This document shows positions 18,003 through 19,313 of a stretch of DNA of 64,000 nucleotides, piece by piece. The notes under the pieces were generated by a model that saw nothing but the letters and a program-made list of their open reading frames with translations, did no database searches and was not told the DNA's origin. This DNA is from Dawidia soli (GTDB taxonomy: Bacteria; Bacteroidota; Bacteroidia; Cytophagales; Cyclobacteriaceae): assembly GCF_018598185.1 (NCBI RefSeq), contig NZ_JAHESC010000003.1, positions 124,001 to 188,000 of the forward strand, given 5' to 3'. The translations under genes and the position numbers were made by a program. The first letter of the stretch is position 1. Each line of letters opens with the position of its first letter.

Positions 18003-19313
18003 CTAATAGGTGCCGTCGGAAAAAGGACGTGAGCCTAAGAAGAAGAACGACGCCAGGATATAGCGACGGCCGCGTGTGATGGGGCGGGCGCCATGCAAAT
18101 AGCCCAACAACCCGGGGTGTACGGACGCATAGCCCACCTGTTCAGGCTTGATCAGTTTTTTATACTTGGGAAAGAACGTTCCGCCGCCGTCGTAGTCGAG
18201 GTTCAGCGTCACGATCAGCGATACATAGCTACCATCGTTATGCAGCCCGAGGTGTCCCTGGCGCTCGGCCAGGTACCGTACGATGAAGTTCTGTGACGTG
18301 AGGTTTTCCCAGCCTTGTCCGTGTAGGTGGTATTTATGAAACAGCAACGGATGCAGGTATTTGCGGAGGGCCTGGTTGAACACCTCGTCCAGCCCGAACG
18401 AGCTTAGCTTGATGTCGATGGGATCGCCGTCTTTTTCGCGGTAGTTAGTCCACTCGCCAAAGTGCTCGGCTTCCTCGATCACCTCCTGGCAAAACGCCGG
18501 CGTGAAGAACGGAAAGGCGTAGACGTTGTCGATCGGCTCGTCGCAGATCAGGTCGAACTCGCGGTGCACCAGCTGGGGGTTGACATACCGTTTTACCCAG
18601 GCTGCCTCGTGCTCGCCGAACGCCTGGTATAACTGCGGATGCAACGGTATATATCCACCGGCGGCTTGCAGCGATGCGTGCCAGTTGCCGTCCGGCGATA
18701 TAAAGTTCTTCATCGGCGCCAGCACGTCGAGCCGCCCGGTATACGCTTCCTTCACTTCACGGTCGGGGTGCTGGCCGCTGAGGGCGCTGAACAGTTCGCC
18801 CGCGGGTATGATCTGTTCGGCAAAACCTGAAGCGGTCAGGATCTCGAGGCCGCGTCGGTTGAGCCGGTAGGCGAAGGCGCCCTGGCTATACCCCGGACGT
18901 ACCAGGCCACCGGTGTTGGCCGGTCGGTCGCCGTCGCTGGCATACCGCCCCAGGTACAGCAGGTCTGCTGTCTCGTCGGTGTCTAAAATATGATAGTGCG
19001 TGCCGGTGGGCACAAAGTCTTCTTCCAGCACCACGACAGACTGTCTTCCTTCCTGCAACGCCTGGTGCCACACGCGCCAGTGGCCCATGGCCAGACTTAC
19101 ATCTCGCTTGTCGTCGGGATTATACCCTTCCATCAGTTTCAGACCGGCTGCATTCAGTGCGGCCAGGGCATCGATCTCGCGCGGCACCTCCACGACTTCG
19201 AGGGGTGTATTTTCCGGCAGTGGCAGCAACCGCAAGCGCTCGGCAAAGAGCTTTTCTTTGTTCGCGTCGTTGCCGGGAAATGCGAGGATATAGACTTTCT
19301 CTGTCGTGATCAT
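18003..19313 (-). CDS. GT25 glycosyltransferase fused to a procollagen-lysyl-hydroxylase-like Fe(II)/2OG dioxygenase
   Basis: 436 residues from the ATG at 19313. Residues ~5-240 look like a GT25 (LPS/collagen galactosyltransferase) domain: VYILAFPGNDANKEKLF, a SLAMGHWRVWHQAL donor-site helix, and VVVLEEDFVP as the acidic metal motif. Residues ~255-436 look like the catalytic end of animal lysyl hydroxylases (PLOD): H358-x-D360 in GLHNDGSYVSL, YDGGGTFFPKYKKLIKP, VHPGLLGYLHGARPITRGRR with H407 as third iron ligand and an Arg ten residues later for 2-oxoglutarate. The order GT then hydroxylase is that of animal PLODs. It ends an operon after two small membrane proteins. No collagen-like substrate is in the window. 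Confidence 0.85.
   Translation of the reverse strand: MITTEKVYILAFPGNDANKEKLFAERLRLLPLPENTPLEVVEVPREIDALAALNAAGLKLMEGYNPDDKRDVSLAMGHWRVWHQALQEGRQSVVVLEEDFVPTGTHYHILDTDETADLLYLGRYASDGDRPANTGGLVRPGYSQGAFAYRLNRRGLEILTASGFAEQIIPAGELFSALSGQHPDREVKEAYTGRLDVLAPMKNFISPDGNWHASLQAAGGYIPLHPQLYQAFGEHEAAWVKRYVNPQLVHREFDLICDEPIDNVYAFPFFTPAFCQEVIEEAEHFGEWTNYREKDGDPIDIKLSSFGLDEVFNQALRKYLHPLLFHKYHLHGQGWENLTSQNFIVRYLAERQGHLGLHNDGSYVSLIVTLNLDYDGGGTFFPKYKKLIKPEQVGYASVHPGLLGYLHGARPITRGRRYILASFFFLGSRPFSDGTY

Follow-up and report, generated by a model that had tools for sequence, protein, structure and literature searches.

A 64,000-nucleotide stretch of the Dawidia soli genome (contig NZ_JAHESC010000003.1, positions 124,001 to 188,000; hereafter the window) codes on its reverse strand for a protein that combines a glycosyltransferase (GT) domain of the GT25 family with a 2-oxoglutarate (2OG)- and Fe(II)-dependent oxygenase domain. 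The C-terminal half of this protein is homologous to collagen-type lysyl hydroxylases (LHs), with all the iron- and 2OG-binding residues present. On balance, we favor the reading that it is a bacterial member of a collagen lysine-modifying family of bacteria and viruses, in which its GT25 domain has degenerated and its LH domain acts on Gly-X-Lys. A single intact open frame of 436 codons makes up the gene (18003-19313, minus strand), which is likewise intact in its relatives; this rules out two genes merged by a frame error and bears out the original prediction of one GT25-dioxygenase protein, not split by a frameshift. Its organization is as follows:

18003..19313, minus strand: GT25-lysyl hydroxylase fusion gene, 436 amino acids (intact frame; relatives known)
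18042..18647, minus strand: collagen lysyl hydroxylase-type 2OG-Fe(II) oxygenase domain, residues 223-424 (homology)
18669..19313, minus strand: GT25 domain of the COLGALT1 type, residues 1-215, probably catalytically degenerate in the window clade (homology; lost motif residues)

The lysyl hydroxylase domain

Among all solved structures, the top matches of the LH half are human LH3/PLOD3 (2.8e-28) and mimivirus L230 (3.5e-28), with LH3 ahead of other oxygenases by ~26 orders of magnitude in this structure-sequence search with the window protein; matches are thus not restricted to unrelated 2OG oxygenases, the outcome that the original prediction had named as contrary to its view. The next-best oxygenase structures are prolyl 4-hydroxylases, whose Bacillus-type members acting on bacterial collagens are also 2OG oxygenases with Gly-X-Y substrates, but these modify proline and match the window protein far more weakly (0.03). 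A Pfam scan of the window protein reports PF25238 (OGFOD2-like) alone. A role as a defense gene was considered and set aside; PADLOC reports just a generic 2OG domain (2.5e-5).

The active-site residues were equated by alignment with those of L230, using the residue numbers given in the available part of PMC5802723:

18273..18275, minus strand: Y347, equivalent to L230 Y814, 2OG side
18234..18242, minus strand: H358-x-D360, iron ligands, equivalent to L230 H825 and D827
18105..18107, minus strand: L403, dimer-locking leucine, equivalent to L230 L873
18093..18095, minus strand: H407, distal iron ligand, equivalent to L230 H877
18063..18065, minus strand: R417, 2OG-binding arginine, equivalent to L230 R887

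The H-x-D, distal His, and Arg singled out by the original prediction are therefore all in place. In a 46-row alignment the iron triad is complete in every row covering that stretch, the L873 column has L, I, or V in 45 rows and a gap in one, and the cyanophage protein has Lys in place of R887; the window protein is without part of one LH loop. A tree of LH domains groups the animal and mimivirus versions with those of Cytophagales (SH-aLRT 87); branches are long, the root is placed at the midpoint, and no firm conclusion is drawn.

Probable degeneration of the GT25 domain

Residues 1-215 match a COLGALT1-type GT25 profile built without the window clade (7.5e-18). COLGALT1 is matched by the GT25 profile with 7.8e-32, as against 1.5e-4 and 8.7e-4 for bacterial GT25 structures. 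Pfam GT25 (PF01755) does not report the window protein above its cut-off; its relatives P0004, P0006 (the Aureibacter GT25 that stands alone), and P0007 pass. The predicted GT25 domain hence stands by profile homology to the COLGALT1 type, but Pfam GT25 fails to recognize this copy. The animal PLOD domain order also claimed for the protein fits only loosely: PLODs begin with GT_PLOD (PF25342), for which we found no match in the window protein (P0001) or in its own genome. Human LH3 shares with it the LH domain, the iron and 2OG residues, and the dimer leucine, but has GT_PLOD and an accessory GT domain ahead of the LH domain; the window protein carries a single GT25 domain of the COLGALT type there. 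The C-terminal GT domain of human COLGALT1 (GLT25D1) shares the GT25 homology and the place of the acidic metal motif, but belongs to a separate animal protein and keeps residues lost from the window copy. At the motif positions, the window protein has:

19017..19025, minus strand: E97-E98-D99, at the COLGALT1 metal site E435-D436-D437 (alignment; site from the available part of PMC13382579)
19080..19103, minus strand: DVSLAMGH (residues 71-78), at the GExGCxxSH motif, with G, C, and S lost (alignment)
18798..18800, minus strand: G172, where P-x-D-E has Asp, a residue kept in 37/37 viral fusions (alignment)

Four motif residues that presumably matter for GT25 catalysis (G, C, and S in GExGCxxSH; Asp in P-x-D-E) are missing from all three window-clade proteins, yet 37/37 viral fusions (see below), COLGALT1, and both standalone bacterial GT25s that were examined retain them. 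Because of this pattern, glycosylation by the window copy is doubtful, and its GT25 domain is, judged from these residues, probably non-catalytic. The acidic metal site, EDD in COLGALT1, is EED in the window protein and all 37 viral fusions, and EEG in Chryseosolibacter histidini. In GLT25D1, D461-x-D463 is essential by mutation (available part of PMC3244457); at the D463 position the three window-clade proteins differ from one another (D, N, and E), and only 14/37 viral fusions have D. Between the window protein and its C. histidini relative, identity is 41% in the GT25 half and 67% in the LH half.

A fully bifunctional enzyme, which would hydroxylate Lys and then glycosylate it with its own GT25 domain, would have to tolerate these departures. 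In its favor, purifying selection acts on the GT25 half, the protein retains E97, D99, and the P-x-D-E Glu, and the viral fusions all have EED; nevertheless, the clade-wide loss of the other motif residues, the EEG site of one clade member, and the failure of Pfam GT25 to recognize the domain make this unlikely. From the hydroxylate-then-glycosylate scheme originally put forward, collagen Lys survives as a plausible target, whereas the glycosylation step is in doubt. Inactive GT domains of animal LH3 and COLGALT1 act as scaffold or substrate-recognition modules (available part of PMC13382579).

Viral fusions and their linked collagens

A viral scan with the window protein alone gave no match; a later scan of IMG/VR contigs, not classified as phages, with the fused alignment, covering at most 80 loci, found both domains in one open reading frame (ORF) at 77/79 viral loci among the matches listed. 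Grouping at 90% identity reduces these fusions to 37 clusters. A collagen-like ORF (at least 12 triplets) lies upstream on the same strand in 23/29 clusters having at least 3 kb upstream, the nearest at 0.4 to 3.3 kb, and none lies downstream in 32 clusters. The long forms (697-818 amino acids) are collagen-linked in 19/19 cases, and the six unlinked clusters (6/29) are all of the two-domain form. At terminase anchors, a collagen-like ORF was seen in 0/30 upstream and 0/50 downstream stretches; this control used a cyanophage query whose 80 best loci are 77-94% identical and not kin-matched to the 37 clusters, lies outside the tail-fiber module, and fell from 80 to 30 and 50 loci when those without a script-recognized terminase ORF were dropped.

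The linked collagens are rich in Lys at the Y position, the one modified in animal collagens (available part of PMC13382579). Upstream ORFs of 27 clusters have Lys at Y 1682 times and at X three times in 6907 triplets, as against 418 and 45 in 4992 triplets of control viral collagens (81 loci with no enzyme in the stretch; Fisher p 1.6e-27). The median Lys-Y share per locus is 22% in the 27 linked and 0.5% in the 81 control loci (p 6.6e-9), and any Gly-X-Lys occurs in 26/27 versus 41/81. The control set was collected with a Gly-Pro pattern (at least 120 loci, 83 with a counted ORF, two of these with the enzyme); it may be redundant, and its stretches span about 1 to 15 kb, so that an enzyme may lie outside them.

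Several viral loci depart from this arrangement. The two-domain fusions L107, L124, L128, L133, L139, and L141 have 5.8-8 kb upstream without a collagen-like ORF; five of these six unlinked fusions cluster in the LH tree and may have another substrate. The whole records of fusion-bearing L048 and L049 have no match to PF01391. Three longer metagenomic forms that were scanned (L093, L109, and L130; 760-818 amino acids) carry a GT4/GT1-type domain ahead of GT25-LH, thus placing three enzymes in one polypeptide by a non-cyanophage route. The collagen locus L263 has 146 Gly-X-Lys in 307 triplets and no LH match within 8.6 kb; its LH enzyme may lie outside this stretch or be of another kind. The collagen-like ORF L052:4946-8291 is Gly-Pro-Thr-rich and Lys-free in the printed run; the 2OG oxygenase ~0.46 kb past it resembles LH weakly (4.4e-6) and may be a counterpart of the prolyl type.

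Cultured phages extend the picture. Cyanophage S-CAM9 gp218 belongs to PHROG_61 (3e-294), labeled '2OG-Fe(II) oxygenase' in PHROGs, and comprises GT25 (PF01755, 6.3e-29), GT_PLOD (PF25342, 7.5e-47), and LH-type domains. It shares with the window protein the union of GT25 and LH-type domains in one polypeptide, but has GT_PLOD between them. Eleven phage records cover at least 80% of gp218, and five kinds of phage bearing it were examined, one record each. The upstream collagens have 22 (S-CAM9), 23 (S-PRM1), 24 (S-8S55), and 26 (roseophage CRP-6) Gly-X-Lys and no Gly-Lys-Y; their genes are annotated as tail fiber in S-CAM9, S-8S55, and CRP-6 and as hypothetical in S-PRM1. The collagen gene and the gp218-type gene of the cyanophages are separated by three small genes, of which two code for 2OG oxygenases. 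The fifth record, AG-345-L05, is short, with no collagen in its 1.8 kb upstream. Collagen repeats are described in pelagimyophages (PMC7029224) and collagen-like domains in Polinton-like viruses (PMC12220804), and prolyl hydroxylase is an abundant viral gene discussed with remarks on collagen in tail fibers (PMC9301287), each in the available part of the source.

The glycosyltransferase of mimivirus L230 is of another kind than GT25, and its host genome is that of a giant virus, not a bacterium or phage. L230 nonetheless shares the coupling of a glycosyltransferase and a collagen LH in one polypeptide (for activity, see the available part of PMC5802723).

Bacterial relatives

The 7.48 Mb Dawidia soli genome has one match to the window protein; a relative in Parachryseolinea silvisoli (Fulvivirgaceae, Cytophagales) is 92% identical and that of C. 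histidini 53-54%. With the window protein as query, 5/196 family genomes match at E<=0.001, three of them full-length (its own, G156, and G160), and 2/395 phylum genomes match, namely its own and one partial. An LH-profile search of 390 order genomes matches 25 (own 1.4e-101, next best 2.2e-10), and GT25 was not found at the 26 loci examined from it. The genes around the C. histidini fusion differ from those around the window gene.

On plasmid pAT5 of Aureibacter tunicatorum, GT25 and LH are adjacent separate genes; the plasmid also holds three genes annotated as collagen-like, one tail-fiber-domain gene, and a long gene annotated as hypothetical, with GSKGEAGPTG in the 1778-residue part read. 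Another Aureibacter locus (L011:6737-8533, genome G010) codes for a 598-residue fusion with an N-terminal C39-peptidase-like domain (PF03412, 1.9e-5), adjoined by ORFs that, by eye, we take to be lanthipeptide enzymes and a C39 ABC transporter; this fusion may modify a ribosomal peptide held through its leader. At L013:6585-8037, a COLGALT-like GT25 gene directly follows a 2OG oxygenase of a different kind, and upstream is an ORF that by eye resembles a lantibiotic dehydratase; this is a second GT25/2OG oxygenase pairing in a possible peptide cluster. A PLOD-type GT domain (PF25342, 5.6e-25; 274-residue frame) is encoded at G160:C40:27135-27671 (L381); the fusion of this genome, which is C. 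histidini-like, is the one with EEG at the metal site.

Candidate substrates in the host genome

The window contains no Gly-X-Y run of at least five triplets, as first noted, but candidate substrates with Gly-X-Lys occur elsewhere in the genome. A PF01391 search at E<=10 gives eight matches, among them five neighboring lipoprotein-like genes on contig C11 plus one gene each on C50 and C37. The C11, C50, and C37 genes start with what by eye resembles a signal/lipobox stretch and continue into a short collagen stalk, e.g., GATGAAGEKGDKGDKGDDG, of the GEKGDKGD type with Gly-X-Lys. The stalks of the three window-type-fusion genomes have 2, 2, and 4 Gly-X-Lys; any is present in 2/9 further loci listed. 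C50-type relatives below 1e-30 occur in three of 196 genomes (likely the set used for the fusion survey), exactly those with the window-type fusion, with the cut set after viewing the list and G099 next at 4.3e-21. This co-occurrence is weak, a hint. Bacterial collagens are mostly without hydroxylation and glycosylation (available part of PMC8968730).

Weighing the substrate and a proposed mechanism

Gly-X-Lys of collagen-like proteins is the likely substrate since the viral relatives are linked to Lys-rich collagens. Against the favored reading stand several observations. No collagen gene adjoins the window gene in its own genome, where no PF01391 match reaches the curated cut-off, and a search this loose also gives matches in 7/14 control genomes; same-genus genomes without the enzyme have 2, 1, and 3 weaker PF01391 matches, also with Gly-X-Lys. 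The C50-type query matches 24/196 family genomes at E<=0.001, 21 of them without the window-type fusion, and in fusion-free G099 the match runs along most of the protein. Two-domain viral forms (431-498 amino acids), the type of the window protein, are collagen-linked in only 4/10 cases, and Lys prefers Y in the control collagens too, by about 9:1. Within the protein, one of three dimer-pocket aromatics is kept (Y798 as Y328; Y801 is replaced by H331 and Y831 by V364), and purifying selection on the GT25 half leaves room for activity by a changed mechanism. The 4/10 linkage and the G099 relative in particular weaken the collagen-lysine reading and lend weight to an LH acting on a non-collagen protein or peptide, e.g., a ribosomally made one. 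The C39-type N-terminal domain of the L011 fusion and the six of ten two-domain clusters showing no collagen gene in their 3 kb upstream agree with this; however, no peptide cluster is seen beside the window gene and collagen genes lie near 23/29 viral clusters, and we regard such a substrate as rather improbable. An ordinary 2OG oxygenase joined to a lipopolysaccharide-type GT25, both functionally unrelated to collagen, would suit the lone PF25238 match and the PHROGs family name, but is rejected as very improbable given the lead of LH3 and L230 (2.8e-28 versus 0.03), the preference of the GT25 profile for COLGALT1 over bacterial GT25 structures, and the Lys-rich collagen linkage.

For a collagen lysine-modifying enzyme with a degenerate GT25 domain, we infer the reaction, the substrate in the cell, the transferase loss, and a cytoplasmic site of action. 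The LH domain, with Fe(II), 2OG, and O2, would hydroxylate Lys at Y of Gly-X-Lys in unfolded nascent collagen-like chains in the cytoplasm before their export; by eye, no signal sequence is seen in the window protein. Its likeliest substrates in its own genome would be the lipoproteins with short N-terminal collagen stalks (the five-gene C11 cluster, C50, and C37). In the viral and split forms GT25 may then add the first sugar to hydroxylysine, and in the GT_PLOD-bearing forms addition of a second is plausible. In the window clade, by analogy with the animal enzymes, GT25 would more probably serve as a scaffold or substrate-recognition module.

Implications

Hydroxylysine glycosylation is commonly regarded as an animal trait shared with mimivirus. 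The full-text literature covered, outside which many subscription journals lie, includes work on the animal and mimivirus enzymes; we found in it no description of a bacterial or phage GT25-LH fusion. Our observations suggest that modified collagen lysines may occur beyond animals and giant viruses. A more tentative possibility is that phages and some bacteria possess the entire pathway for collagen lysines (up to the COLGALT-type galactosyltransferase, PLOD-type glucosyltransferase, and LH joined in gp218), acting on Gly-X-Lys of collagen-like tail fibers, a pathway that Cytophagales co-opted for surface lipoproteins and with which animal PLOD and COLGALT share an origin; we rate this lower because the D463 and N-terminal columns are unconserved. 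The presence of these enzyme parts in bacteria and viruses, often close to collagen-like genes with Lys confined almost entirely to Y, provides a prokaryotic system open to direct tests, might allow modified collagen to be made recombinantly in bacterial cells, and offers a lead on the origin of the animal collagen-modifying enzymes. For PHROG_61, hitherto labeled just '2OG-Fe(II) oxygenase', a function is suggested as well.
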